Of a stretch of 64,000 nucleotides of DNA, positions 13,587 through 61,183 are shown one piece after another. The position numbers and the translations under genes are program-made. Position 1 is the stretch's first letter. Every line of letters begins with the position of its first letter. The DNA is taken from the NCBI RefSeq assembly GCF_016863015.1, contig NZ_BOOB01000026.1, positions 62,001 through 126,000 of the forward strand, given 5' to 3'. The notes under the pieces were generated by a model. The model was not told the DNA's origin. It saw only the letters and a program-made list of their open reading frames with translations, and did no database searches. Source of the stretch: Microbispora amethystogenes (GTDB taxonomy: Bacteria > Actinomycetota > Actinomycetes > Streptosporangiales > Streptosporangiaceae).

Positions 13587-14621
13587 TCACTTCTCGGTGG
13601 CCACGCCGAGCTTGCGCTCGATGTCCGCGACCTTGCCGGTCTTGGAGTCGAAGAACTCGGTGGTGATCTTGTCCCAGCCGCCGAGGTCCTGGATGGTGAA
13701 CAGCTGCGGCGGGGCGGGCCAGTCGAAGCCGGTCACCCCGTCGGCGACCGGGCGGTAGCCGTTCTTCGCGAAGATCGTCTGCGCCTCGACCGAGTAGAGG
13801 TACTTGAGGAAGGCCGCGGCCTCCGCCGGGTGCGCGCTGTTCTTCGTCACGGCCACCGGGTTCTCGATGAGAAGCGTGGCGTCCGGAACCGTGTAGTCGA
13901 GCTCCTGGCCGTTCTGCCGGGCGAAGATCGCCTCGTTCTCGTACGTGAGGATCGCGTCGCCCTTGCCGCCGGTGAAGGTCTGCAGCGACTTGCGGCCGCT
14001 GTCGTCCTGGACCGGCACGTTCTTGAGCAGCGAGTCGAGATAGGTGAGCCCGGCGGCCTGGTCGGCGCCCTTGTCCGACTTCGCGCCGTAGCCCGCGAGC
14101 AGGTTCCAGCGGGCGCCGCCGGAGGTGAAGGGGTTCGGGGTGATGACCTCGACTCCCGGCTTGATCAGGTCGTCCCAGGTCTTGATGCCCTTCGGGTTGC
14201 CCTTGCGGGTGCCGATGACGACGACGGACCTGGTCAGAATCCCCTTGCTGGGCCCGGCGCCCGGGCCGGAGTTCCAGTCCGGCGCGACGATGCCGGCCTT
14301 CACGAGTCGGGTGATGTCGGTCTCCAGGGAGAACTCGACGATGTCCGCCTTGAGGCCGTTGGCCACCGCGCGGCTCTGGTCGCCGGACGCGCCGAACGAC
14401 TGGGTGAAGGTGATGTTCTTGCCCTCGGGCGTCTTCTGGAACGCCGCGATGATGTCCTTGAACGCCGCCTGGGGGGTGGAGTAGGCGACCAGCGCCAACT
14501 GGACCTTGCCGCCGCCCCCGCTGTCGCCCCCGCCGGCGCTGTCGCCTCCCCCGCAGGCGGTGACCAGGGTGGACGTCGCCACGACGGCGGCTGCGATGGC
14601 CCCGAGCCTGCGCACTCTCAT
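13587..14621 (-). CDS. Sulfate-binding lipoprotein of the ABC importer
   Basis: 344 residues from the ATG at 14621, with GAGGG upstream. A lipoprotein signal ends in the lipobox LVTACGGG, so the protein is tethered outside the membrane. The mature part follows the Sbp/CysP periplasmic-binding fold: LALVAYSTPQAAFKDIIAAF at the start, FTQSFGASGDQSRAVANGLKAD with the anion-contacting Ser/Gly, PNPFTSGGARWNLLAGYG, and the ENPVAVTKNSAHPAEAAAFL block near the end. First gene of the sulfate operon; its promoter and a possible regulator site lie directly upstream. Sbp versus CysP (sulfate versus thiosulfate preference) cannot be separated by eye. Confidence 0.92.
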   Translation of the reverse strand: MRVRRLGAIAAAVVATSTLVTACGGGDSAGGGDSGGGGKVQLALVAYSTPQAAFKDIIAAFQKTPEGKNITFTQSFGASGDQSRAVANGLKADIVEFSLETDITRLVKAGIVAPDWNSGPGAGPSKGILTRSVVVIGTRKGNPKGIKTWDDLIKPGVEVITPNPFTSGGARWNLLAGYGAKSDKGADQAAGLTYLDSLLKNVPVQDDSGRKSLQTFTGGKGDAILTYENEAIFARQNGQELDYTVPDATLLIENPVAVTKNSAHPAEAAAFLKYLYSVEAQTIFAKNGYRPVADGVTGFDWPAPPQLFTIQDLGGWDKITTEFFDSKTGKVADIERKLGVATEK

Positions 14622-14632
14622 GCCTTGCCCTC

Positions 14633-14657
14633 TATTCCTACCATGTCAGTCGGTTTA
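14633..14657 (-). promoter_or_regulatory. Candidate Rrf2/CymR-type operator at the sulfate operon
   Basis: Read on the minus strand, it starts TAAACCGACTGAC and ends TAGGAAT. The layout resembles the Bacillus CymR box as I remember it (TAA... then ATxGGAATT), though the spacing is one base shorter and some positions differ. It begins just downstream of the -10, where a bound repressor would block transcription. The regulator candidate is the Rrf2 protein at 10614-11006. Confidence 0.45.
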
Positions 14658-14661
14658 GTCG

Positions 14662-14692
14662 ATATTAAAGACCGTTCCAGAGATTCCGTCAA
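14662..14692 (-). promoter_or_regulatory. Promoter of the sulfate operon
   Basis: On the minus strand TTGACG (14692-14687) is followed after 17 bases by TTTAAT (14669-14664), which overlaps TAATAT (14667-14662). This is the strongest sigma-70-like match in the region and lies 40-70 bases before the ATG at 14621. Confidence 0.6.
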
Positions 14693-14888
14693 CTCCGATG
14701 GGTTTGCTGGGTTTGGGGCTGGAGTGGCGCACGGAGTGACATCTCAGTGACAGGATGGATTCCAGTGATTGCTGTGAAATTTCCGGACAAAGACTGTCGA
14801 GAGGTGCTAGGAACGTTCGGCGGGGGCGGGAGACGACCCCCGCTCAGCTCACCTGTGAAGTTCACCTAGGAAGTACGGAAGGACCCTC

Positions 14889-15794
14889 ATGCACGACCCG
14901 GCCGAGGGCGAGGAGGCCCACGAGCAGACCGGCCCGCTGGTACGGCCGTACATCGCGGGCGAGGCCCGGAACGACGCCGAGGGAGACCGGTTCTGGTCGG
15001 AGGAGCACGACGAGGCGGCCCTCGCCGCGACCCCGGGACAGCAGATTCAGGGGCAGGCACAGGACCGGACACAGGGCGAACAGGCCGATCACGGCGACGT
15101 GCTGGCGGAGGACTGGCGTCCTGATACCGAAAAGCCCGCGACCGTCGTCCTGGAGTCCTCCGGCGACAGCGAGCCCCGGGGCTTCCTGGGGTCGGGCTGG
15201 CGCAGCGCTCCCGATCCCGAGGACGACGAGGTGGACGCCTACGGAGACGAGGAGGACTCGCGGCGCGGCGGCATGCTGCTGCGGGCCGGCCTGATCGGTG
15301 TCGGCCTCGTCGCCGCGATCTGGGCCCTGGCCCTGTGGGTGGGCAGCCCCGCCGAACCGGCGTGCGGTCCGGGCAGTGCGAGTGGCGCGAGCGGCTGCGC
15401 GGCCGGCGCCCCGGCGACGTCCCTGACGCCGACTCCGGAGGCTGTGCCCAGCGACGACTCCGGTGACGACGCCGCGCTCGCCGATCCCGGGACGGGCGAC
15501 GACGACCCCTCGCCCGCCGCGCCGACCCCTGGGACAACCACCCGGGCGCCATCCCGTGACACGTCGGCCCGTACGCAGGACACCGGGCCGCGGGCCGGCG
15601 CGTCTCCGCGTCCGACCCGGTCGCGCGGCCCGGTGCGGTCACAGCCTCCGGTGACGGTGGACGAGCCGTCCGAGGCGCCGACGACCGTCGCACCGACGAA
15701 CGAGCCGACGTCCGAGCCCACCACGGCTCCCGCGCCCGCCCCCACCCAGGAGGCGCCGCGGCGCGGCGGAGGCATACTGGACCTGCTCTTCTAG
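14889..15794 (+). CDS. Single-pass membrane protein with Pro/Thr-rich outer domain, unknown function
   Basis: 301 residues from the ATG at 14889 (GGAAGGA upstream). The first 125 residues are acidic and Gln/Glu/Asp-rich and predicted cytosolic. One hydrophobic helix (LLRAGLIGVGLVAAIWALALW) follows, then about 150 residues of Pro/Thr/Ser/Ala-rich, probably disordered sequence outside, including PTNEPTSEPTTAPAPAPTQE. It ends in a basic-hydrophobic tail, RRGGGILDLLF. Two cysteines flank a short loop just after the helix (ACGPGSASGASGCA). The layout is common among actinobacterial wall-spanning proteins. No enzymatic motif is visible. It is convergent with the LCP gene with 33 bases between stops. 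Confidence 0.8.
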   Translation: MHDPAEGEEAHEQTGPLVRPYIAGEARNDAEGDRFWSEEHDEAALAATPGQQIQGQAQDRTQGEQADHGDVLAEDWRPDTEKPATVVLESSGDSEPRGFLGSGWRSAPDPEDDEVDAYGDEEDSRRGGMLLRAGLIGVGLVAAIWALALWVGSPAEPACGPGSASGASGCAAGAPATSLTPTPEAVPSDDSGDDAALADPGTGDDDPSPAAPTPGTTTRAPSRDTSARTQDTGPRAGASPRPTRSRGPVRSQPPVTVDEPSEAPTTVAPTNEPTSEPTTAPAPAPTQEAPRRGGGILDLLF

Positions 15795-49904: not shown

Positions 49905-50277
49905 GGGCCACCGGCGCCACGCGGCGCGCCGCGGAATTGTGTCCGGGCGGATGGCCGTCCCAGGGGATTAGGACCGGTCCAAAATTGACATGCGTCCGCA
50001 AACACGGTTGACATTGTCCGTAATGCTAGGGAATGGCGGCCGGTGGCGCAACATTCAACTACTCGCCGGTACCACTTCTTCATCATGGCCCCGTCTGACC
50101 TGCGGAGATGCTGAAAATATCTAGATCTGCCGCCCAATACGCACCATTGTGGACGCATTTCCGGATGAGAATGACATAATGCGTGGGAGCGCTCCCGCGC
50201 TCGCGGCTGCATTCTTCGCAGCGCCCATACGGCACGCCTGCCCCAGGGGCATGGTGGAAGGAAGGTGCCGCGTCTCC
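49905..50277. other. Upstream region of the glycan operon
   Basis: No gene. GC drops markedly over about 49960-50180. Two TTGACA hexamers (near 49986 and 50010) do not pair with well-spaced -10s; the CATAAT at 50175 with the operator at 50184 is the better promoter candidate. Confidence 0.5.
50175..50197 (+). promoter_or_regulatory. -10 element and CebR/CelR-type operator of the glycan operon
   Basis: CATAAT (50175-50180) followed by TGGGAGCGCTCCCG (50184-50197). That is the CebR/CelR cellobiose-repressor operator TGGGAGCGCTCCCA with one change at the last base. Transcription would start inside the palindrome, so a bound LacI-family repressor would block it. Confidence 0.7.
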
Positions 50278-50988
50278 ATGACGGCATTCGGCGAAAGTCC
50301 TCCGTCCCGGCCGCGTCTCGACGGAAATCTTCCGGCGGACGTCGTCCGCGCCGGCTCCCGCCCCTGGGCGCCCCACGTGTGGTGGATGGCCCTGGTCGTC
50401 GGTGCCGCCGGCACCGGTTTCGTGTGGCTGGCCACGCCGCACACCAGGGAGATCCAGTCGCCCTGGCAGATGGTGGCCAAGCTCCTCGCGTTCGCCTGCC
50501 TGTGTGTGGCGATAGCGGTCTTCCCCTGGGTGTCGCCACGGTTGAACTGGCTGCTCTACGTCCCGTTCGTTCTCTTCACGGGTTATCTGATCCCGAGGAT
50601 CAGCTGGTTCTACTACGGAGACGGCGCGCGGGCCCAGGGCGACAGCTTCTACACGCATCTGTATCTGCTGCTCTATCCGGGCATCGTGCTCACGGTCGCC
50701 GCCGCGTACCGGATCGGCGGGGGCACGCCGGGCCGCTGCCTGAAGATCATGGCGACCGGTGTCCTCATCGTGTTCTCCGGCTTCCTCGACATCATGTGGT
50801 TCGTCGCCAATCCCGTCGAGATTCCCGAGGTCATCGACGCGCCGCACATCAACCTGTTCACCGGGGGGCCGATCTCGTTCGGCGCGACGATCGTGTTCGC
50901 GCTCGTGCACGTCCCGGTCATCGTCGGGATCAACCTGCTTCCCCTGGACCGCTGGATCGGCCGTCTGCTCGGCGCGGACGACCGCTGA
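50278..50988 (+). CDS. Polytopic membrane protein of the glycan locus
   Basis: 236 residues from the ATG at 50278 (MTAFGESPPSRPRLDG); an in-frame ATG at 50149 would lie upstream of the operator and promoter, so the shorter start fits better. Six membrane helices, e.g. WWMALVVGAAGTGFVWLA, LLAFACLCVAIAVFPWV, YLLLYPGIVLTVAAAYRI, VLIVFSGFLDIMWFVAN and ATIVFALVHVPVIVGINLL. Polar loops carry ISWFYYGDGARAQGD and DAPHINLFTGGP. No known family. First gene behind the CebR-type operator; it may help export or assembly of the polymer made by the following glycosyltransferases. Confidence 0.72.
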   Translation: MTAFGESPPSRPRLDGNLPADVVRAGSRPWAPHVWWMALVVGAAGTGFVWLATPHTREIQSPWQMVAKLLAFACLCVAIAVFPWVSPRLNWLLYVPFVLFTGYLIPRISWFYYGDGARAQGDSFYTHLYLLLYPGIVLTVAAAYRIGGGTPGRCLKIMATGVLIVFSGFLDIMWFVANPVEIPEVIDAPHINLFTGGPISFGATIVFALVHVPVIVGINLLPLDRWIGRLLGADDR

Positions 50989-51039
50989 TCCGCTCCCTCG
51001 TCTCCCCGCAATCCGATATATCCCGAGGAGGCCAGTGCT

Positions 51040-51810
51040 GTGGACATCTCCGTGGCCGCGCCCGCGTACAACGAGGCGGAGACCATCGCGGCCTCGGTCG
51101 GCGAGTGGCAGGAGTATCTGGAGAACAACCCCGCCGTCGGCGACTGGGAGATCGTCGTCTGCGACGACGGCAGCGGTGACGCGACCGGCGAGATCCTCGC
51201 CGGTCTGCGGGCCCGGTGCCCGCGCCTCGTCGTCGTCACGCATCGGCCCAACCAGGGCGCGGGCGCGGCGATCGCCACCGCCATCGCCCACACCCGGCTC
51301 GACTGGGTCGTGCTGCTCGACTCCGACGGCCAGTTCCCGATCGCCAACCTCGACCGGGTCATCCCGCGGATCGAGGCCGGGGAGGCCCTGGCGTTCTCCG
51401 GCGCCCGGATCAGGAAGGCCGACGGCGCGGCGTACCGCTGGGGGTCGGCGGCCAGCGGCGCGGTCAGCAACCTGCTGCACGGCACCCGTTACCGCGACTT
51501 CAACTCGATCTTCAAGGTGGTGTACGGCCCGCTGTTCCGGGCCCTGCCCCTGGAGTCGGGCGGCATGAACTGCTCGACCGAGATCACCGCCCGGGTCGCC
51601 GAGATCGGCCACGAGTGGGTGGAGGTCCCCATCGAGCACCGCGAGCGCGGCGGGGGACGGCGCGGCTGGCGGTTCTGGCGCGGTGCGCGCGACCGTGCCC
51701 TGTTCGTCGCCTATCTCGGGTTCCGCCACTGGCTGCTGCGCCGGGGGGTCCTGCGGCCGCCTGCGACCGGAGCCGTCGCGCCCGCGCCGGTCGCCGAGGA
51801 GGCCCGATGA
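51040..51810 (+). CDS. Family 2 glycosyltransferase (dolichol-phosphate-mannose synthase-like)
   Basis: 256 residues from a GTG at 51040 preceded by GAGGAGG. GT-A fold: ISVAAPAYNEAETIAASVGE, IVVCDDGSGDATGEIL with the nucleotide Asp pair, VVVTHRPNQGAGAAIATAI, the DxD motif in VLLDSDGQFPIANLD, and the acceptor region STEITARVAEIGHEWVEVPI. This pattern (PAYNE...DDGS...NxGxGAA) is that of prenyl-phosphate sugar synthases, which load a sugar onto a lipid carrier at the inner membrane face. It overlaps the CofD-like gene by 4 bases (ATGA). Confidence 0.9.
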   Translation: MDISVAAPAYNEAETIAASVGEWQEYLENNPAVGDWEIVVCDDGSGDATGEILAGLRARCPRLVVVTHRPNQGAGAAIATAIAHTRLDWVVLLDSDGQFPIANLDRVIPRIEAGEALAFSGARIRKADGAAYRWGSAASGAVSNLLHGTRYRDFNSIFKVVYGPLFRALPLESGGMNCSTEITARVAEIGHEWVEVPIEHRERGGGRRGWRFWRGARDRALFVAYLGFRHWLLRRGVLRPPATGAVAPAPVAEEAR

Positions 51811-53021
51811 GCGTCGCGGTCACCATGTTCAACGGCGGACGCGGAGCGGCCAGCATCGCGAGGGGCATGCTGAGCACTCCCGGCGTCGGTCTGTCGCTGG
51901 TGGTGAACGGCTACGACAACGGCCAGTCCACCGGCGCGCTGCGGCGCTACCTGCCCGGGATGCTCGGGCCGTCGGACTTCCGCAAGAACCTGCTGCTCCA
52001 CCTCGATCCCGCCGATCCGGCGCAGGCCGCGCTGACGACGGTGCTCGAACACCGCCTGCCGGCCGGGACCACGCCCGCCGGGCTGACCGAGGTCATCGAC
52101 GCCGTCGCGGCGCGGCGCGGCCGGTTCGCCGCGCTGCCGGAGGAGGCGTCCGCGCTCGTCGCGGGGCACCTGCGCGCCTTCGCCCGGCGGCTCGCCGCCG
52201 CCCCGCACGGGTTCGACCTCGCCGACTGCGCGCTCGGCAACCTCGTGTTCGCCGGGGCGTACCTGCGGCTCGGCCGCGACTTCAACGCCGCCGTCGACGC
52301 CTGCGCCCGGGCGTTCGGCTCGCCCGTACGGCTGCTCAACGTGACCAACGGGGAGAACGCGTTCCTCGTCGCGCTGCGGCGGGACGGCACGCTGCTGGCC
52401 GACGAGGCCGACATCGTCGCGCCCCGGGACCAGCGGCGGCCGCAGGCGGCGATCACCGACCTGTTCCTGCTGCCCGAGCCGGTCGGCGGGCGGCGGCGGG
52501 CCCAACTGGAGGCGTCACCTCCCGAATGGGCGAGGGACGATCTGCTCCGGGAGCGCGCCGAGGTCACGCCGAACCCGCGGGCGCTGGAGGCGATCATGAC
52601 CGCCGACCTCATCGTGTACGGCCCGGGAACGCCGCACTCCTCGCTGCTGCCCAGCTATCTCACCCCCGGCGTGGCGGACGCCGTGGCGCGGAGCCGGGCC
52701 GCGGCGAAGGTCTTCGTCGTCAACACCCGCGACGACCACGACAGCCGGGGGCTGAGCGCGCCCGACCTCGTGGACCGCACGCTGACGTACCTCGGCGACC
52801 CCGGCAACCGGCGGCGCCTGGTGACCCACGTCCTCAGCCACCACGGTCCGGACGTTCCGGCGGTGCCCCGCGGGGTGCTCGGGCGGGGCGAGTGGGCGGG
52901 GGCCCGCTGGCTCACCGCCGACCTGGAGGACCCCGGCCGCCCCGGCGCGCACCACGCGAGGCGTACGGCCGGCGCGCTGCTCGCCATCAGGGACGAGGCG
53001 GCGCTGGCGAGGGCCCGGTGA
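51807..53021 (+). CDS. CofD/YvcK-like (2-phospho-L-lactate transferase fold) protein
   Basis: 404 residues; ATG overlaps the GT2 stop. Rossmann-like CofD superfamily: VTMFNGGRGAASIARGMLST resembles the GGGxG nucleotide loop (here NGGRGAA), LSLVVNGYDNGQSTGALRRY matches the D-D/N-G-x-S-T-G motif of YvcK, and DLIVYGPGTPHSSLLPSYLT is the C-terminal GPGSLYTSxxPxL-type motif. CofD makes F420 precursors; YvcK/GlmR binds UDP-GlcNAc and controls wall-precursor flux. No F420 genes are near, and this protein is embedded in a glycan operon, so a YvcK-like nucleotide-sugar role seems likelier. It is longer than both models. Confidence 0.8.
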   Translation: MSVAVTMFNGGRGAASIARGMLSTPGVGLSLVVNGYDNGQSTGALRRYLPGMLGPSDFRKNLLLHLDPADPAQAALTTVLEHRLPAGTTPAGLTEVIDAVAARRGRFAALPEEASALVAGHLRAFARRLAAAPHGFDLADCALGNLVFAGAYLRLGRDFNAAVDACARAFGSPVRLLNVTNGENAFLVALRRDGTLLADEADIVAPRDQRRPQAAITDLFLLPEPVGGRRRAQLEASPPEWARDDLLRERAEVTPNPRALEAIMTADLIVYGPGTPHSSLLPSYLTPGVADAVARSRAAAKVFVVNTRDDHDSRGLSAPDLVDRTLTYLGDPGNRRRLVTHVLSHHGPDVPAVPRGVLGRGEWAGARWLTADLEDPGRPGAHHARRTAGALLAIRDEAALARAR

Positions 53022-53710
53022 CCGATCTCCTGGCGGACGCCTGTGCCCGCCGCGTGTGGCTCTTCGACCTCGACGGCACTCTCGTCGACTCCTGCCCGGC
53101 CCACGAGGCGGCCTTCCGGCAGGCCATCGCCGAGGTCGCGCCCGGCCTGCTCGGCTCCTTCCGGTACGCCGACCACACCGGCGCGAGCACCCGTGAGGTG
53201 GCGCTGCGCCTGCTGGGCGACACCGAGGAGGCGGCCCGGCTGGCCCGGCTCAAGCAGCGGCTCTACCGCGAGAACCTCGACACGGTGGCCGTGTTCCCCG
53301 GCGCGCGGCGGCTGCTCGCCCGCCTGACCGCCGCCGGCCGGGCGACGTACGTGGTCACCGGCGGCAGCCGGGCCTCGGTCGAGCGGACGCTCGCGGCGCG
53401 GTCCCTCGACGCGTACTTCATCGACGTGCTCACTGGCGACGACCTCCCGGCGAGCAAGCCCGACCCGGCCTGCTACGCGTACGCCTGCGAGCACTGGGGG
53501 CTCGACCCCGGCGCGGTGGTGGTGCTGGAGGACTCGGCGCACGGCGTCGCGTCGGCGGTCGGCGCGGGCCTCGCGACCCTTCACGTCCACGTCGCCGAGC
53601 CGGCCCCCGGGGCGGTCGCGGCCCGAGACCTGGAGGAGATCGCCGCCCGGCTGGAGCGGGACGCGGAGAGGGACAGCGACACGGACCTGGAGGTGAGCGG
53701 TGCGGGCTGA
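53018..53710 (+). CDS. HAD-superfamily phosphatase (beta-phosphoglucomutase-like)
   Basis: 230 residues; GTG start overlapping the previous stop. HAD motif I LFDLDGTLVDSCPAHEAAF (nucleophile first Asp), motif II TYVVTGGSRASV, motif III Lys in LPASKPDPACYAYA, and motif IV VVLEDSAHGVASAV. The helical cap between I and II (FRQAIAEVAPGLLG...REVALRLLGD) is of the PGM/phosphoglycolate type. Likely dephosphorylates a sugar phosphate for the locus, paired with the nucleotidyltransferase encoded next. Confidence 0.88.
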   Translation: MTDLLADACARRVWLFDLDGTLVDSCPAHEAAFRQAIAEVAPGLLGSFRYADHTGASTREVALRLLGDTEEAARLARLKQRLYRENLDTVAVFPGARRLLARLTAAGRATYVVTGGSRASVERTLAARSLDAYFIDVLTGDDLPASKPDPACYAYACEHWGLDPGAVVVLEDSAHGVASAVGAGLATLHVHVAEPAPGAVAARDLEEIAARLERDAERDSDTDLEVSGAG

Positions 53711-54467
53711 GCGGATCTGCGCGGTGATCCCGGCCGCCGGGCGGGGCACCCGCCTGGGGCTCGGCATCCCGAAGATCATGGTGGAGGTCGCCGAAGGCGT
53801 CACCGTGTGGCACGTGCTCCACCAGCGGCTCCGGCCGCACGTGGAGCACGTCCACGTCGTGATGTCCCCCGAGGGGGAGGGGCCGTTCCGCGCGCTCGCG
53901 GCGGCGGAGATCGCCGCCGGCGCGGTCTCGGTGAGCGTGCAGGAGGAGCCCACCGGCATGGGCGGGGCGATCTTCGGCGCGGCCCCGCACTGGAGCGGCC
54001 ACGACGTGGTCCTCGTGGTCTGGGGCGACCAGGCGAACCTGTCGCCGTCGACGGTCCGCCGGGTCGCCGAGACCCACGAGAAGGGCCTCACGCTGCCGCT
54101 CGTGCCGATGCCGGACCCGTACGTGGAGTACGAGCTGGACGATCAGGGCGTGCTGACGCGGGTGCGGCAGTCCAGGGAGGGCGACGAGTGCCGTCCCGGC
54201 GGGCTCGGTGACGTGGGCGTGTTCTGCCTCGACGTCGCCGGGCTGCACGAGGAGTGGACGCGCCACCTGGGACAGGCGGCAGTGGGGGCGACGCTGGGGG
54301 CGCGCACCGGGGAGGTCAACTTCCTGCCGTTCCTGCCGCACCTGTCGCGGGAGCGGGGCTGGCCGCTGACCGTGGTGCCGGTCGCCGATCCCGGCGAGGC
54401 GCGTGGTGTCAACACGGCCGACGACCTCGAGTTCGCCCGGAGGGCCTACCTGCGGTGGGCGCGCTGA
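53700..54467 (+). CDS. Sugar-phosphate nucleotidyltransferase-like protein
   Basis: 255 residues from a GTG at 53700, overlapping the HAD gene by 11 bases. NTP_transferase fold: ICAVIPAAGRGTRLGLGIPK with the GxGTRL nucleotide loop and Pro-Lys, GVTVWHVLHQRLRPH, VQEEPTGMGGAIFGA, the metal-binding VVLVVWGDQANLS (GD), YVEYELDDQGVLTRVRQSRE, and a closing DPGEARGVNTADDL, typical of GlmU/KdsB-like N-terminal domains. Produces an NDP- or CMP-sugar for the glycosyltransferases of the operon; the sugar is not determined. Confidence 0.87.
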   Translation: MRAERICAVIPAAGRGTRLGLGIPKIMVEVAEGVTVWHVLHQRLRPHVEHVHVVMSPEGEGPFRALAAAEIAAGAVSVSVQEEPTGMGGAIFGAAPHWSGHDVVLVVWGDQANLSPSTVRRVAETHEKGLTLPLVPMPDPYVEYELDDQGVLTRVRQSREGDECRPGGLGDVGVFCLDVAGLHEEWTRHLGQAAVGATLGARTGEVNFLPFLPHLSRERGWPLTVVPVADPGEARGVNTADDLEFARRAYLRWAR

Positions 54468-55744
54468 CGGAGCGGGCGGCCGCGCTGCTGGCCGCCCACC
54501 GCTGGGCCGCCGGGCCCACGCTGGTCAGCACCGTGGCCAGCGGCACGGCCGCCGCGACCACGCTCGTCATCGCCCGGGGCGCCGGCGCCGCGGCGTTCGG
54601 CCACTTCACCGTCGTCCTGTCGATCGCGCTGATCGTCACGGTCGGCATGCTGATGAGCGTCAACCTCGTCATGTTCCAGGAGCTGCCGCGGGCCGAGCCC
54701 GGCGAGCGGCCGGCCCTGGTGACCACGGCGCTGCTGTCGACGCTCGTGCTGGGCGCGGCCGTGTTCGCCGCCGGGCTGCTGGCCGCCGCGCCGCTGACCG
54801 CCGCGCTCGGCGTGGACGCCCGCACGCTGGCCTTCGCGCTCGCGCTGGCGTTGTCGATGACGCTCAACCAGCTCACCGAGAGCTTCCTGCGGGGGTTGAA
54901 GCGGTTCCGCCTCGTCGCGTGGCTCAAGCTCGCCGTGGCGGTCGCCTACCTGGGCACCGCCGTGTTCTGCCTGCTCGTCCTGGACGTGCGCGACGCGGAG
55001 CCGTACCTCGTCGCGCTGATCGGCACGAACCTCGTGTTCGCCGCGCTCTCCTTCGCCGGGTTCGAGGTCAGGCCGAGGCTCTGGTCGCGGGCGCTGGCCC
55101 GCTCGATGTACCGGCACGGCGCGTACGTCACCGCCATCGGCGCGCTCACCGCCGTGGCGTTCGGGGTCGACGTGATCTTCCTGAACCACTGGGCGCCCCG
55201 GGCCGACGTGGGCGTCTACTCCGTCTACAACGGCTTCCCCAAGCGGCTGCTGGGCGTGGTCTTCACCGACGGCGTCGGCCTGGTGCTGCTGCCCACGCTG
55301 GCGACCCTGGACAAGCCCGCGGTGATGCGGCGGATCGCCCGGCTCGGCCCGGCCGTCTTCGGGGCCACCGCGGTGTTCTCGTTCGCGGCGAGCACGGTCT
55401 TCTTCCTGCTGATGGGCGGGGAGTATCCGTACTCGCTCGGCCTGATGGCCCTGTCGGCGCTGGGGATCGGCGCGCACACGGTCTTCAACCTCTACCAGGT
55501 CGCGTTGACGATGGACGGGGTGCGGGGGGCCCGGGTGCTCATCGGCTGCCTGCTGGCCGGCACGCCGCTCGCGCTCGGCTGCCAGGCGGCGTTCATCGCC
55601 TGGCAGGGCCTGACCGGCGGGCTGGTGGCCTTCGCCCTGACCAATCTCATCCTCGTGGCCGTCGTGGTGGCCGCCTGCGCCCGGTTGTACCGGCCCGGCG
55701 GCACACCGGCGGCCGTGACCGGCGCACGGGAGGCACGGCGATGA
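54455..55744 (+). CDS. Wzx-type lipid-linked oligosaccharide flippase
   Basis: 429 residues from a GTG at 54455, overlapping the previous gene by 13 bases. Twelve or so membrane helices, including TVASGTAAATTLVIARGAGA, FTVVLSIALIVTVGMLMSVN and VVFTDGVGLVLLPTLATLDK. Typical polysaccharide-biosynthesis (MATE/MVF-like) layout with an intracellular loop SFLRGLKRFRLVAWLK. Carries lipid-linked repeat units to the outer face. No Wzy-type polymerase is recognisable in the operon. Confidence 0.87.
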   Translation: MGALTERAAALLAAHRWAAGPTLVSTVASGTAAATTLVIARGAGAAAFGHFTVVLSIALIVTVGMLMSVNLVMFQELPRAEPGERPALVTTALLSTLVLGAAVFAAGLLAAAPLTAALGVDARTLAFALALALSMTLNQLTESFLRGLKRFRLVAWLKLAVAVAYLGTAVFCLLVLDVRDAEPYLVALIGTNLVFAALSFAGFEVRPRLWSRALARSMYRHGAYVTAIGALTAVAFGVDVIFLNHWAPRADVGVYSVYNGFPKRLLGVVFTDGVGLVLLPTLATLDKPAVMRRIARLGPAVFGATAVFSFAASTVFFLLMGGEYPYSLGLMALSALGIGAHTVFNLYQVALTMDGVRGARVLIGCLLAGTPLALGCQAAFIAWQGLTGGLVAFALTNLILVAVVVAACARLYRPGGTPAAVTGAREARR

Positions 55745-57006
55745 GGATCGCCTTCGTCATCAACCAGTTTCCGCCCAACATCACGGCGGGGCTCGGCCGG
55801 TACGCCGAGATGATCGCGCCGCACCTGTCGGGCGGCCACGACCTCGCCGTCCTCACCCTGAACGACGGCGGGCTGCCGGTGTGGGACCGGGCGGACGGCG
55901 TCACGGTGTACCGCCCGCGCGGGCGGGTGCTCGCGTGGGTGCTCGGCGCGGTCGCCCGTGGGCGGCGGCTCAACCGCACCCGCGGCGCGGAGTTCCTCCT
56001 GCTCGCCCTGAGCGTCGTGGTGAGCAACTGGCGTTACTTCCTGCTGCTGCGGCGGCTGCCGCCCGCCCGGCGGCCGGACGTCGTCGCCGTCCACGACTCG
56101 ACGAACTTCCTGTGCGGCCTGCTGAGCCACTATGTGCTGCGGCTCCCGGTGGTGTTCCACGTCCACACGACCGAGTACGGCGTGGCGCGGCAGCGCAGCA
56201 TCACCGACCCGCTCGGCCTGTTCGCCGCGCTGGAGCGGTGGCTGGCGCGGATCTCCCGCCGGGTCGTGGTGGCCACCCCCGAGGTCCGCGAGCAACTGCT
56301 CGCGGCGGGATGGGACCGGACGCCGATCGACGTCGTCCGGCTGGGCGGCACGTACGAACGGGTGGTCGCCGCCCCCGGCTTCGACCGGGAGAGGCTGCGG
56401 CTGGGGGCGGCGGATCTCCGCGCCCGGCTCGGCATCGGCGCGCAGGACCCGGTGCTGCTGTTCGTCGGCCGGATCGAACGGCAGAAGGGCGTCTACGAAC
56501 TGCTGGAGGCGATGCCCGCGATCGCCGCGGCCGTGCCCGGCCTGCGCCTGGTGATCGTGGGGGAGGGCGACGAGGACGGCGTGCGGCGCATCGCCGCCGG
56601 GTTGGGGCTCGGCGACCGGGTGCTGACCAGCGGCGGTTTCGTGGACGGCGAGGCCCTGCTGGAGCACTACGCGATGGCCGACGCCTGCGTCTTCCCCTCG
56701 CTGTTCGAGCCGTTCGGGCTGGTGGCGACCGAGGCGATGGCCCTCGCCCGCCCGGTGATCCTGGGCGACGGCTTCTCCCGGATCTTCCTCGGCGACCCCG
56801 CCGAGCCCGCCGTGCGGTTCGTACGGGCCGACGACCCCGGTGACATCGCCGAGGGGGTCGCCGAGGTCATGGGCGACGCGGACCTGCGCCGGACGCTCGC
56901 CGAGCGGGGGGAGCGGCTGGTGCGCGAGACGCTGAGCTGGCGCCGCGCCGCCGACGAGACGCTCGCGGTGTACGCCGAATCGGCGGGGAAGGACGGCGGC
57001 CGGTGA
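55741..57006 (+). CDS. Family 4 glycosyltransferase
   Basis: 421 residues; ATG overlaps the flippase stop (ATGA). GT-B fold: MRIAFVINQFPPNITAGLGR with the glycine loop, HVHTTEYGVARQ, VVATPEVREQLLAAGWDRTP, VLLFVGRIERQKGVYELLEA, LRLVIVGEGDEDGVRRIAAG, and the E-x7-E donor motif in FPSLFEPFGLVATEAMALAR. Retaining enzyme adding a sugar to the growing lipid-linked chain. Typical of capsule and exopolysaccharide operons. Confidence 0.9.
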   Translation: MRIAFVINQFPPNITAGLGRYAEMIAPHLSGGHDLAVLTLNDGGLPVWDRADGVTVYRPRGRVLAWVLGAVARGRRLNRTRGAEFLLLALSVVVSNWRYFLLLRRLPPARRPDVVAVHDSTNFLCGLLSHYVLRLPVVFHVHTTEYGVARQRSITDPLGLFAALERWLARISRRVVVATPEVREQLLAAGWDRTPIDVVRLGGTYERVVAAPGFDRERLRLGAADLRARLGIGAQDPVLLFVGRIERQKGVYELLEAMPAIAAAVPGLRLVIVGEGDEDGVRRIAAGLGLGDRVLTSGGFVDGEALLEHYAMADACVFPSLFEPFGLVATEAMALARPVILGDGFSRIFLGDPAEPAVRFVRADDPGDIAEGVAEVMGDADLRRTLAERGERLVRETLSWRRAADETLAVYAESAGKDGGR

Positions 57007-58046
57007 TCTCCCTGGTGGTGCCCTGCTACAACGGCGCCAAGACCCTGCGGCTGTGCCTGGAGTCGGTGCTCGCGCAGACGCGGCGGCCCGGCGAGGTCGT
57101 CGTGGTGGACGACGCCTCCACCGACGGCTCGGCGGAGATCGCCGAGGAGCTCGGCTGCCGGGTCGTGCGCCTGCCGGAGAACCGGGGCGTCTCGGCCGCC
57201 CGGAACGCCGGGATCGACGCCACAACCGGCGATGTGATCTTCTTCCTCGACGCGGACGTGGCGCTGCGGCCCGACGCCGTCGCGGGCGCGATGGAGATCC
57301 TGGAGCGCGACCCGGAGGTCGGCTGTGTGCACGGCGTCTACGACGTCGAGCCGCTGATCGACGACGGCCCGGCCGAGTGGTACCGCATCCTGCACGCGGT
57401 CCACTGGCGGCGCCGCCACCTCGGAGAGGTCAACAGCGTCGTCTTCGCCCTCGCCGCGATCCGCCGCGACGTGCTGCTCGCCGCCGGCCGGTTCGACGAG
57501 CGGCTGCGCGACTGCGAGGACGTCGAATACAGCAGCAGGCTCGCCGTACGCAGCCGCATCGTGCTGACCGACACGGTCGTGGGCCGGCACGACGACGGCA
57601 GCCGCCTGCTGCCGATCCTCACCGAGCAGTGGCGGCGGGCCCTGCCGCTGATCCCGCTCGCCCTGGCCACCGCCCGGCGCGGCGCGGCCAAGCCCGAGCA
57701 CGCCAACAGCCCGGCCGGCATCCTCTCCTGCGCGCTCGCGCTCGCGTGCCTCGCGCTGGTGCTGCTGAGCGTGCCGTTCGGGCTGTTCCACCCGCTCGCG
57801 TCCGCGCTGCCCGTGGCGTTCGTCGCCGGGTTCGCGATCGCCGATCCCGTGCTGGTCGGGTTCGTCCGCCGGCAGCGCGGGGTGGCGTTCACGGCCTACT
57901 TCATGGCCGTCCACCTCGCCGTACACGTCGTGCTGGTGACCGGCCTCGCGGCCGGCTCCCTGCGCCTGCTGTGCTGGCCGCGCGGGAGCCGGACCGAGGC
58001 AGCGTGGCAGATCAGGCGCAGCCGACGCGGCCGGTGCTCAGCGTGA
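57003..58046 (+). CDS. Family 2 glycosyltransferase with C-terminal membrane segments
   Basis: 347 residues; GTG overlaps the GT4 stop. GT-A: ISLVVPCYNGAKTLRLCLES, VVVVDDASTDGSAEIAEEL, the NRGVSAARNAGIDATTGD block, DxD as FFLDADVALRPDAVAG, and RFDERLRDCEDVEYSSRLAV for the acceptor. Three or four membrane helices end the protein (e.g. ILSCALALACLALVLLSVPF), so it works at the membrane, perhaps in chain extension. The last 35 bases overlap the 3' end of the convergent Cip1-like gene. Confidence 0.9.
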   Translation: MISLVVPCYNGAKTLRLCLESVLAQTRRPGEVVVVDDASTDGSAEIAEELGCRVVRLPENRGVSAARNAGIDATTGDVIFFLDADVALRPDAVAGAMEILERDPEVGCVHGVYDVEPLIDDGPAEWYRILHAVHWRRRHLGEVNSVVFALAAIRRDVLLAAGRFDERLRDCEDVEYSSRLAVRSRIVLTDTVVGRHDDGSRLLPILTEQWRRALPLIPLALATARRGAAKPEHANSPAGILSCALALACLALVLLSVPFGLFHPLASALPVAFVAGFAIADPVLVGFVRRQRGVAFTAYFMAVHLAVHVVLVTGLAAGSLRLLCWPRGSRTEAAWQIRRSRRGRCSA

Positions 58047-58812
58047 TGTCGTCCATCCAGAGGTCGTACGCCGAGGGGGTGGGGTTCGGCTGGTAGAGCT
58101 GCCAGCCGAGCTTCACCGTGTCGAACCTGGGGAAGACGAAGTCGACGTCGTTGCCGCCGTGCGAGCGGGTGGAGACGGTCAGGTCGGGCTGGGGGACGCC
58201 GTCGAACCAGACCGAGATCTTGTTGTCGGAGGGGTCCATCCGCCACTCGACGCACTGCCAGACCCCCGCCCGGGAGGGCGCGGACTCGCGCCAGTTGGTC
58301 CAGTCGCCGGTGGGCCCGCCGTCCGCGCCGACGCCCCACAGCTGCTTGCGCAGCGTGGGGACGTACTGCCCGCCGAGCGGCCGGACGATCTCCGGCCCGG
58401 CGCCGGTGGTCTCGATCAGCGTGTAGTGCGCCCAGTCGGGCGCGGTGGGGAACGCCTTCACCCGCAGCCGGACCCGGCCGTAGAAGCCGTTGCCGGGCGG
58501 GGCGAAGTCGTCCACCCTGAGGAAGGCCCGGCCGTTGCCCTCGGTGTGGACGTGCAGCACCTTCTGGCCGCCGCCGGCGGGTTCGACGGTCAGCGTGCCG
58601 TGCTTGGTGTCGACGCCCCACTTGAGGCTGGCCGCGCCGCCGACGGGCAGCGACTGGAAGTCCTCGCAGAACAGCGCGGCCTTCTTCGCGCAGGTCCCCG
58701 GTCCGTGCCCACCCGGTCCACCCCCGTCGTGTCCACCTGAGGCGGAGGCGACCGAGGTCGCCGTCAGCGGCAGCAGCAGGGCCAGACCGGCGGCGGATAA
58801 CAGACGTCTCAC
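58012..58812 (-). CDS. Secreted Cip1-like / polysaccharide-lyase-fold protein
   Basis: 266 residues from a GTG at 58812 with GGGAG 9 bases upstream. Signal peptide RRLLSAAGLALLLPLTATSV, a His/Gly-rich linker, then a beta-jelly-roll starting CAKKAALFCEDFQSLPVGGA with the disulfide pair, YGRVRLRVKAFPTAPDWAHY, then WQCVEWRMDPSDNKISVWFD and the closing SAYDLWMDDITLSTGRVGC. This resembles the Cip1 (cellulose-induced protein) group, related to glucuronan/alginate lyases (PL20/PL7-like folds); the assignment is by pattern memory. A CebR-type operator lies at its promoter, fitting a cellulose- or beta-glucan-responsive exoprotein. It might instead be a lectin-like binder. Confidence 0.65.
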   Translation of the reverse strand: MRRLLSAAGLALLLPLTATSVASASGGHDGGGPGGHGPGTCAKKAALFCEDFQSLPVGGAASLKWGVDTKHGTLTVEPAGGGQKVLHVHTEGNGRAFLRVDDFAPPGNGFYGRVRLRVKAFPTAPDWAHYTLIETTGAGPEIVRPLGGQYVPTLRKQLWGVGADGGPTGDWTNWRESAPSRAGVWQCVEWRMDPSDNKISVWFDGVPQPDLTVSTRSHGGNDVDFVFPRFDTVKLGWQLYQPNPTPSAYDLWMDDITLSTGRVGCA

Positions 58813-58860
58813 AACACGCTCCCTTTCCCGGTGACAACGGCAGAAGTAAGGTACGTCACT

Positions 58861-58874
58861 TGGGAGCGCTCCCA
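58861..58874. promoter_or_regulatory. CebR/CelR-type operator, perfect palindrome
   Basis: TGGGAGCGCTCCCA, an exact match to the CelR/CebR consensus. On the minus strand it falls between the -10 TACCTT (58853-58848) and the -35 position of the Cip1-like gene. On the plus strand it lies about 55-65 bases ahead of the lyase start. One repressor could control both divergent genes. Confidence 0.8.
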
Positions 58875-58915
58875 TAGGTGTCTGCCGAAGATCGAGGAAA
58901 GCGGCGGATCGCGCG

Positions 58916-58921
58916 GATAAT
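58916..58921 (+). promoter_or_regulatory. -10 hexamer of the lyase gene (leaderless geometry)
   Basis: GATAAT, six bases before the GTG at 58928. No Shine-Dalgarno lies between them, so a leaderless transcript is likely. Confidence 0.5.
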
Positions 58922-58927
58922 CTACGT

Positions 58928-61183
58928 GTGAAGGGACCTTCCCGGCGATTATTTCTCCAGTTCAGCGGGCTCGCCGTTCTCCTCACGGCCTGCGCTCCCC
59001 GCACCGGGACCGGAGCCGGTGTCGAGGAACTGACCGCGCTGGGCCGCCGCTGGCGGGAGGTCACCCTCGGCGCGGGGCTGTTCGATCCGGCGCGGGAGCC
59101 GTACCGGGCCCGGCTGGCCCGGCTGGGTGCGGCGGCCCGCCTGCACCGCGACGCCATGACCCTCACCGGCCGGTCGCTCTGGCCGGACCTGCCCTTCCCG
59201 TCCCTCGGCGCCACCCCGTCGCGGCTGCGGGCCATGGCCCGCGCGTACGCGCTGCCCGGCACCGGGCTGACGGCCGAGCCGGGCCTCGGCTCGGCCGTGG
59301 CCACCGGGATCGAGCACTACGTGCGGCACGTGTACGCCGCGGACGCCCGCCAGACCGGCAACTGGTGGGACTGGCAGATCGGCGCGCCGAGGGCGCTCCT
59401 CGACGCGGCCGTGCTGGCCGGTCCGCACCTCACGGGCGGTCGGAACGCGGCGCTGTGCGAGGCTGTGGACAACTTCGTCCCCCCGGACCGCCTCGACGAC
59501 TACGCGGGCAACAGCACCGGGGCCAACCGGGTGGACCTGTGCACGGTCACGCTGCTGCGGGCGATCGCCGGAGCGGACCCCGGCCGGGCCGCGCTCGCCG
59601 TCTCCGCGCTCTCGCCGGTCTTCCGGTACGTCACCGAGGGCGACGGGTTCTACCGCGATGGCTCGTTCATCCAGCACGGCTCGGTCCCCTACCAGGGCGG
59701 GTACGGCGCGGTGGCGCTGACCGGCCTCGCGACGCTGGCCGCGGTGCTGCGCGGCACGCCGTGGGAGATCGCCGACCCGGCCTTCCACAACGTTCTCGAC
59801 GCGGTCGACAGGTCGTTCGCGCCGTTCGTCCACGACGGCGCGTGCCTGGACCTCGTACGGGGACGCGGAGTCGCCAGACGGCCGTACGGCGACCACGCGC
59901 GCGGCAGGGAGATCGCCGCCGCGATCCTGCTGCTGGCGGAGACGGCCCCGGCCGCCGACCGGGCCCGCTGGCGGGGCATGGTCAAGGGCTGGGCGGCGCG
60001 CGACACCGCGAAGCCCATGCTCCGGGCCGCCGAGGGCGATCCGGCGTTCCACGCGCGGCTCGCGGCCGTGCTGCGCGACGAGACGACACCGGCGGCGCCC
60101 GAGCCCTCCGGGCACCGCCTGTTCCCCATGAGCGCCCGCGCCGTACACCGCCGGCCGGGCTGGTGCGCGGCGCTCAGCATGGCCTCCTCGCGGGTGGCGC
60201 GCTACGAGCACGGCAACGGCGAGAACCCGCGCGGCTGGCACACGGGCGCCGGGATGCTCTACTGGTGGGGCGGGGGCGACCAGTACTCCGACTCCTTCTG
60301 GCCCACCGTGGACCCCTACCGGCTGCCGGGCACCACCGTCTCCACCCTGCGCCTGCCGGACGGGGCGGGCGGCGCGTGGGGCGACACCCGCCCGCCGGCC
60401 GACTGGGTGGGCGGCGTCACCGACGGCGCGTACGCGGCCGTGGGCCAGCACCTGTACGGCCTGGAAAGCGCCCTCGAGGCCTTCAAGTCGTGGTTCTTCC
60501 TCGACGACGCGGTCGTCTGCCTCGGCGCCGGGATCACGAGCCGGGACGGCGTGCCGGTCGAGACCGTGGTGGACAACCGCAGGACCGGCGCCGCCCTTAC
60601 GGTGGACGCCGTGGCGGGGCGGGCCCATCTGGACGGCCACGGCGGCTACGTCCTGCCCCCGGGCCAGCCGCTGCGGACGCTGCGCGAGACCCGTACGGCG
60701 GGCGGGGCGAGCCGGTCGTACGCCACGATCTGGCTGGACCACGGCGTGGACCCGGACGCGGCCGGCTACGTCTACCACCTCATGCCGGGGGCGAACCTGG
60801 CCGCGACGCGGGCCCGCGCCGCCGACCCCGGCTGGGCCCGCGTGCTCGCCAACACCTCCGCCCAGCAGGGGATCGCGGTGACGTCGCTCGGGATCACCGC
60901 GGCCTGCTTCTGGGCCGGGGGACGGGCGGGCGACCTGGCCGCCTCCGATCCGTGCGCGGTCCTCGTACGGGACCTGGGTGACGGCACGGCGACGGTGACG
61001 GTGGCCGATCCCCGGTGTGTCCTTGACGGGCTGACCGTGACGTGGGACCACCCGGTGGCCGGGATCGTGAACCCGCATCCGCTCCTGGCCAGTGCCCGGA
61101 CGGGGGCGCGGCTCACGCTCGTCTTCGGCCGACTGGCGGATCGGGCCGGCGCCTCCCACACGGTCACCGTACGGCTCGCGTGA
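58928..61183 (+). CDS. Family 8 polysaccharide lyase (hyaluronate/chondroitin/xanthan lyase type), lipoprotein or Tat-exported
   Basis: 751 residues from a GTG at 58928. The N-terminus KGPSRRLFLQFSGLAVLLTA then CAPRTG has a twin-Arg followed by a hydrophobic stretch and a lipobox Cys. An (alpha/alpha) toroid domain bears the catalytic set: Asn in NSTGANRVDLC (about 198), His and Tyr in GSFIQHGSVPYQGGYG (about 248 and 257), and Arg in LDLVRGRGVARR (about 312). The spacing closely follows xanthan and hyaluronate lyases. Beta-sandwich domains follow (WHTGAGMLYWWGGGDQYSDS; LPDGAGGAWGDTRPP). It beta-eliminates uronic-acid-containing polysaccharides. Substrate could be xanthan-like or glycosaminoglycan, or the polymer of the adjacent operon. 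The neighbouring operator suggests CebR-type control. Confidence 0.9.
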   Translation: MKGPSRRLFLQFSGLAVLLTACAPRTGTGAGVEELTALGRRWREVTLGAGLFDPAREPYRARLARLGAAARLHRDAMTLTGRSLWPDLPFPSLGATPSRLRAMARAYALPGTGLTAEPGLGSAVATGIEHYVRHVYAADARQTGNWWDWQIGAPRALLDAAVLAGPHLTGGRNAALCEAVDNFVPPDRLDDYAGNSTGANRVDLCTVTLLRAIAGADPGRAALAVSALSPVFRYVTEGDGFYRDGSFIQHGSVPYQGGYGAVALTGLATLAAVLRGTPWEIADPAFHNVLDAVDRSFAPFVHDGACLDLVRGRGVARRPYGDHARGREIAAAILLLAETAPAADRARWRGMVKGWAARDTAKPMLRAAEGDPAFHARLAAVLRDETTPAAPEPSGHRLFPMSARAVHRRPGWCAALSMASSRVARYEHGNGENPRGWHTGAGMLYWWGGGDQYSDSFWPTVDPYRLPGTTVSTLRLPDGAGGAWGDTRPPADWVGGVTDGAYAAVGQHLYGLESALEAFKSWFFLDDAVVCLGAGITSRDGVPVETVVDNRRTGAALTVDAVAGRAHLDGHGGYVLPPGQPLRTLRETRTAGGASRSYATIWLDHGVDPDAAGYVYHLMPGANLAATRARAADPGWARVLANTSAQQGIAVTSLGITAACFWAGGRAGDLAASDPCAVLVRDLGDGTATVTVADPRCVLDGLTVTWDHPVAGIVNPHPLLASARTGARLTLVFGRLADRAGASHTVTVRLA

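Follow-up and report, generated by a model that had tools for sequence, protein, structure and literature searches.

Candidate CebR/CelR operators at a glycan operon of Microbispora amethystogenes and related Streptosporangiaceae

CebR has been described as the gate of cellulose catabolism and, in Streptomyces scabies, of a phytotoxin (accessible part of PMC5332605). For Streptomyces and Thermobifida, the accessible parts of PMC4898821 and PMC3377646 place the sites of the CebR/CelR regulons at genes for cellulases, the cellobiose transporter, pyruvate dehydrogenase-type enzymes and kinases, and that of PMC4898821 also has Streptomyces Cip1 homologues induced on plant biomass. The genome analysed here shares with these regulons, as presented there, the 14-bp palindrome TGGGAGCGCTCCCA and the LacI-family type of repressor. 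Our subject is a stretch of 64,000 nucleotides from Microbispora amethystogenes (contig NZ_BOOB01000026.1, positions 62,001 to 126,000 of the forward strand; the window), in which one palindrome lies at the promoter of an eight-gene glycan operon and another upstream of a gene for a secreted Cip1-like protein. Sequence comparison makes it quite probable that both are operators of the host CebR/CelR repressor, which would derepress the glycan operon together with the cellulases on cellobiose. The operon appears to have joined the CebR regulon, on more than one occasion in the simplest account. The elements on which this reading turns are:

50175..50180, + strand: probable -10 CATAAT of the operon promoter, inside a 23-bp invariant run
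50184..50197, + strand: CebR/CelR-type operator TGGGAGCGCTCCCG, one mismatch to the consensus, just downstream of the -10
50198..50277, + strand: conserved 5′ leader, with invariant blocks at 50230-50243 and 50257-50274
50278..50988, + strand: gene 1, a probable membrane protein of 236 aa, found at 29 Streptosporangiaceae loci
58861..58874, no strand assigned: CebR/CelR-type operator, exact TGGGAGCGCTCCCA, seven bases upstream of TACCTT

The layout given by the initial annotation was correct: the first palindrome starts three bases past CATAAT, eight open reading frames (ORFs) follow it within 50278-58046, and the exact palindrome stands between the Cip1-like gene and a family 8 lyase gene. 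We counted as an operator any 14-bp match differing from the consensus at no more than one position. At a tolerance of two mismatches, these two sites were the sole matches in the window; allowing three gave eight matches against 7.6 expected. A scan of the 8.13-Mb host genome (G000) found 15 exact copies against 0.11 expected from base composition, three one-mismatch forms against 4.8 expected, and 51 places when up to two mismatches are tolerated, where the reversed control pattern has 66. By themselves these counts support only one of the two sites: the exact site at 58861 is well above chance from single-genome counts, whereas the one-mismatch site at 50184 is not. Motif counts, whether from the window or from a single genome, were rejected on this ground as a way of validating the latter; the site gains its support from conservation across orthologous operons.

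For the genus comparison we used 15 Microbispora genomes, the host and 14 others. Gene 1 is present in ten of them, and before its main copy TGGGAGCGCTCCCG is found in all ten, beginning 92-94 bp upstream of the ATG. The 23-bp segment CATAATGCGTGGGAGCGCTCCCG (50175-50197), which holds both the -10 and the operator, is identical in 10/10 operons, and no invariant run in the 500 bp ahead of gene 1 is longer; 24% of positions are invariant in the part that precedes it and 74% in the leader that follows. We also considered an upstream ORF starting within the operator and rejected it, because the variation of 1-2 bp in the distance from site to ATG among orthologues breaks the frame. The operator folds as an 8-bp hairpin. 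The leader folds no better than its shuffles (z-score -0.76), and no Rfam family attains its cut-off there; base pairing between CGGCAC near 50230 and GTGCCG near 50267 is possible, and the invariant blocks lie around the ribosome-binding region. Further upstream, at 49985-50030, two TTGACA-containing elements are well conserved in the Microbispora alignment and perhaps mark a second promoter or the site of another regulator. In one genome (G013, locus L168, G013:C1:2776000-2788000), the CofD-like gene is the only one of the eight found in the 12 kb around the locus; it is of full length and is preceded, at a distance of 110 bp, by the -10, operator and leader. This reduction of the operon to promoter, operator, leader and CofD gene suggests a separate role for the CofD-like protein.

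We then scanned the wider family, taking the genome contigs with gene 1, which yielded 29 loci (seven from Microbispora and 22 from others), in Microbispora, Nonomuraea, Sphaerisporangium, Sphaerimonospora, Planomonospora, Planobispora, Acrocarpospora, Microtetraspora and another member of the Streptosporangiaceae. The closest named relatives of the operon belong to Microbispora, the best being M. triticiradicis (99% for gene 1). The order gene 1, GT2, CofD, HAD and nucleotidyltransferase is kept in 28 of the 29 loci, the sequence of L146 ending just after gene 1, and flippase and GT4 genes then follow in 27, with L146 and L150 ending early. Locus L158 carries an extra GT4 gene (14421-15734) between the nucleotidyltransferase and flippase genes, and a gap of similar size occurs there in many other non-Microbispora loci.

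An operator with at most one mismatch accompanies the operon at 19 of the 29 loci, in differing positions. This count excludes the sites that go with Cip1 in the seven Microbispora loci and two in L160 that lie beside a LacI/kinase pair, and because the loci are related it does not represent 19 independent events. In 12 loci the site is close to where gene 1 starts (start codons are predicted; in L142 it touches the aligned N-terminus). It is further upstream in L145 and in L144, where a GT2 gene precedes gene 1, and falls within the final part of that gene in L153, L156, L157 and L158, while L148 has two tandem exact sites. All of these last seven loci, as well as L141, match the consensus exactly. 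Within a fixed region of 1.8 kb the site was found in 18/29 loci, including 11/22 outside Microbispora (that of L144 lies beyond the region); of 209 control palindromes with the same half-site composition, three reached 1/29 in this region and the others none. A separate family sample, scanned upstream only, had gene 1 in 30 of 200 genomes and the site in seven of 18 close loci (L109-L126).

In the four Planobispora/Planomonospora loci with the site at the end of gene 1 (L153, L156, L157 and L158), the gene's own codons, GTG/TTG GGA GCG CTC CCA, spell out the operator. The residues there are G-A-L-P; the other 25 loci read N (21 loci), G (two) or A (two), followed by L-L-P, and CCA encodes that proline only in the four. 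The operator is present in two copies in all in L157 and in three in L158, spaced 95 bp apart, the additional ones lying past the gene 1 stop codon; the 14-mer is identical in all of them, and the flanks are 50-79% identical. A midpoint-rooted tree of all loci but L146 (28 in total) nests the four in a clade whose other members lack the site, with a support of 0.99 for the four and of 1.0, 0.88, 0.94 and then 0.12 for the next nodes outward. Most simply, the operator gain in these loci would be separate from that on the Microbispora side. Such a gain argues that the DNA motif itself was selected at this operon. The operon also offers a clear candidate for an operator that selection favoured within coding sequence although conserved residues were lost.

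The repressor presupposed by the initial annotation is present in the host. The gene of its CebR/CelR orthologue (L062 6430-7449; G000:C49:93432-94448) forms a row with those of a GH1 enzyme, a permease-like protein (judged by eye) and a solute-binding protein, the last of which has two exact sites upstream. The protein scores 415 bits to PDB 5ysz, which we take to be T. fusca CelR, and 160 bits to the next PDB sequence, and it occurs in 15/15 genus genomes at 94-100% identity. Further exact sites lie upstream of four cellulase genes (two GH6-CBM2, one GH48-CBM2 and one GH9-CBM2), of an aldose epimerase gene next to GH1, and of an E1 dehydrogenase gene; two more belong to a LacI/kinase pair, one upstream of the LacI gene and one behind the adjoining kinase gene. 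These target classes are close to those that the accessible part of PMC3377646 gives for CelR of S. roseum and T. bispora.

Leaving 58861 aside, four exact host sites remain. One (L017:5039, G000:C9:97538) is near the start of an NRPS gene with condensation and AMP-binding domains and recalls the CebR control of the thaxtomin genes; two others adjoin genes for a LuxR-family AAA regulator (L020:4979) and an HATPase_c_2 protein (L016:5015). The fourth (L019:4974, G000:C17:189873) lies 176 bp past an LPMO10-CBM2 gene with no obvious gene start adjoining, and for its position beyond the 3′ end we rejected that gene as an operator target. One of the cellulase sites (L022:4995, G000:C29:43894) separates a GH6-CBM2 gene from a divergent GGDEF-EAL gene, and a link from cellobiose to cyclic di-GMP is possible there.

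The second site of the window belongs to a divergent region with the following features:

58012..58812, - strand: secreted Cip1-like protein with a signal-like N-terminus (by eye); PF21340 27.7 bits, cut-off 27
58916..58921, + strand: probable -10 GATAAT of a leaderless PL8 transcript; GGATAATCT conserved in 13 Microbispora Cip1 upstream regions
58928..61183, + strand: PL8 polysaccharide lyase; PF08124, PF02278 and PF02884 above cut-off

A close Cip1-like gene (83-100% identity) is present in 13 genus genomes, and the exact site lies upstream of it in 13/13; two weak Cip1-like matches of 27-28% (L091 and L092) were not counted. The draft genome G012 (92% complete, 810 contigs) keeps the Cip1-like gene and the site with no PL8 match. 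Genome G003 has the PL8 gene, with GATAAT ahead of it as well, lacks Cip1, and shows no site with up to three mismatches in the 5.3 kb examined. Since the site thus tracks Cip1 and is placed before TACCTT, the probable -10 of the Cip1-like gene, while PL8 has its own GATAAT, the 58861 site is, as read from distribution and placement, the putative operator of the Cip1-like gene. Control of the PL8 lyase through it is doubtful in Microbispora. The proposal that the two sites bracket a single locus is not supported as stated, since they do not clearly flank one unit. The sequence does support its other part: both sites are of CebR type, the host has a CebR orthologue and such sites at its cellulase and transporter genes, and glycan operons of several genera carry them.

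The PL8 protein scores 706 bits to its nearest solved relative, 2wco, 460 to chondroitin AC lyase and 341 to xanthan lyase. We assume 2wco to be the secreted hyaluronan lyase of S. coelicolor; PL8 has a tyrosine at the position that reads alanine in 2x03 and tyrosine in 2wco. PL8 genes occur in the sequence around eight of the 29 operon loci, the seven of Microbispora and L148. In the latter, from Nonomuraea roseoviolacea, the PL8 gene lies directly behind the operon; its product is 39% identical to the PL8 of the window and scores 422 bits to 2wco, 405 to chondroitin AC lyase and 398 to xanthan lyase. This suggests a second pairing of lyase and operon.

In the mechanism that we propose, CebR would, without cello-oligosaccharide, sit over the start of the glycan operon, where the site comes just after the -10, and over the promoter of the Cip1-like gene, where it comes just before, blocking transcription of both. 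Cellobiose entering via the CebE-type transporter would make CebR release the DNA, and the eight-gene operon would then be expressed alongside the cellulases. Its product would be a lipid-linked or exported glycan, perhaps holding the cell on cellulose. CebR binding, the cellobiose response and the nature and role of the glycan are inferred. For the Streptosporangiaceae at large, we lean slightly towards a picture in which the cellobiose repressor turns on the building of a surface glycan together with the cellulases, as a coat or holdfast on cellulose, and in which this wiring arose repeatedly, including through a recoding of the gene 1 end that placed in coding sequence an operator later duplicated into an array.

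Several observations weigh against CebR control of the operon. At ten of the 29 loci, the sequence available contains no site even when two mismatches are allowed; among them only L155 is short of upstream DNA (256 bp), and L146 and L150 end early downstream. The operon site is the one-mismatch form in 10/10 Microbispora operons, and a divergent second gene 1 copy in G005 (L077, the eleventh copy) is without it. The leader behind the site is conserved too, and RNA could explain part of this conservation. Some exact host sites are away from cellulose genes, namely those at the NRPS, LuxR-type regulator and HATPase genes, and the site near the LPMO10 gene is not upstream of it. Finally, a CebR paralogue of 53-56% identity exists in 14/15 genus genomes; that of the host is 54% identical, and the helix regions GRGTVSRVING and SRATVSRVVNG are similar.

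The existence of this paralogue leaves room for a reading, unlikely in our estimate, in which the operon sites are bound by it or by some other LacI-family protein that responds to a different ligand. Peripla_BP_3 matches number 31 in the host genome, several of which can be fragments of a single gene; the operon motif is, however, the same as that beside the host genes for cellulases and the transporter, and in S. roseum and T. bispora partly different palindromes stand upstream of the second cellobiose-type operons (accessible part of PMC3377646). We regard it as still more improbable that 58861 is a true CebR operator of the Cip1-like gene alone and 50184 a chance palindrome or a 5′ RNA hairpin. 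Three one-mismatch sites where 4.8 were expected are what chance would give, and the 50184 site is close to where the transcript is inferred to begin, can form its hairpin and is followed by a conserved leader. Yet the operons listed above carry exact sites elsewhere, and a 5′ hairpin is inadequate to explain sites at other positions, in coding sequence and in repeated copies; the control palindromes reach at most one locus in 29.

The remaining alternative lets the 58861 site govern the Cip1-like gene and PL8 together, so that synthesis and cutting of one glycan are co-induced. We hold this as a tentative option, somewhat short of an even chance. The site does lie within the shared divergent region, and in L148 the PL8 gene directly follows an operon carrying two exact sites. 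The presence of the site in G012 and its absence from G003 run the other way, as does its position, since roughly 54-67 bp separate it from the downstream start inferred for a leaderless PL8 transcript, a long way for direct repression.

Behind gene 1, the operon continues with seven genes:

51040..51810, + strand: GT2 glycosyltransferase; PF00535, E 2.9e-23
51804..53021, + strand: CofD-like protein; PF01933, E 6e-29; below NCBIfam cut-offs; related to UPF0052 structures
53021..53710, + strand: HAD phosphatase-like protein; PF13419, E 1.7e-28
53700..54467, + strand: MobA/IspD/GlmU-like nucleotidyltransferase; PF12804, E 4.4e-14; GlmU 54.9 bits, below cut-off
54482..55744, + strand: Wzx-type flippase; PF01943 34.8 bits, cut-off 28.2
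55744..57006, + strand: GT4 glycosyltransferase; PF00534, E 8.3e-28
57003..58046, + strand: GT2 glycosyltransferase with a hydrophobic C-terminus (by eye); PF00535, E 6.6e-36

Gene 1 has no Pfam or NCBIfam match, and its predicted structure is a low-confidence helical model (pLDDT 63) with no PDB match below E 0.001. A surface polysaccharide is a reasonable guess for the product, and for the CofD-like protein and the nucleotidyltransferase we considered a phospholactate-like modification. If the proposed control is true, cellobiose would be a cue for a cell-surface change on plant matter, and the operon draws attention to a so far unstudied glycan whose synthesis would include a CofD-like step.

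Flippase-type exopolysaccharide operons bring together glycosyltransferases, a nucleotidyltransferase and a Wzx-type flippase, with a lyase nearby. The operon described here shares all four, and so has the combination of glycosyltransferases and Wzx-type flippase that serves as a criterion for such operons; unlike them, it has a CofD-like protein and the gene 1 membrane protein as core genes. We did not place it in that class because a Wzy polymerase or chain-length protein was not recognised: gene 1 is unassigned, and the eight genes gave no Pfam or NCBIfam match to either (genes elsewhere were not searched). The CelR of bacterial cellulose in Proteobacteria is a different protein.

The Cip1-like protein is distant from T. 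reesei Cip1, with similarity in the C-terminal third only (PDB 3zyp CIP1, E 2.4e-5, residues 180-265; the PF21340 match likewise covers only the C-terminal part); it has no cellulose-binding domain by Pfam, and its predicted structure (pLDDT 39) is unusable. It resembles the Streptomyces homologues in the accessible part of PMC4898821, for which induction on plant biomass is already known, as a Cip1-like secreted gene in a cellulose-linked regulon. Among the literature matches listed, CebR/CelR control of glycan synthesis was not found, and the supplementary site tables of PMC3377646 and PMC4898821 might include such a site. The members of CebR/CelR regulons described in the accessible parts of these two papers are degradative, transport, carbohydrate-metabolism and signalling genes, whereas here the target is a glycan-synthesis operon whose sites are partly coding. 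The nearest precedent is provided by the thaxtomin genes of Streptomyces scabies, which the accessible part of PMC5332605 presents as a non-cellulase cluster under imperfect CebR sites. By analogy with the argument made there, the invariant imperfect base of the Microbispora operon site could be a weaker lock; that cluster makes a phytotoxin, and the one described here is a glycan operon.

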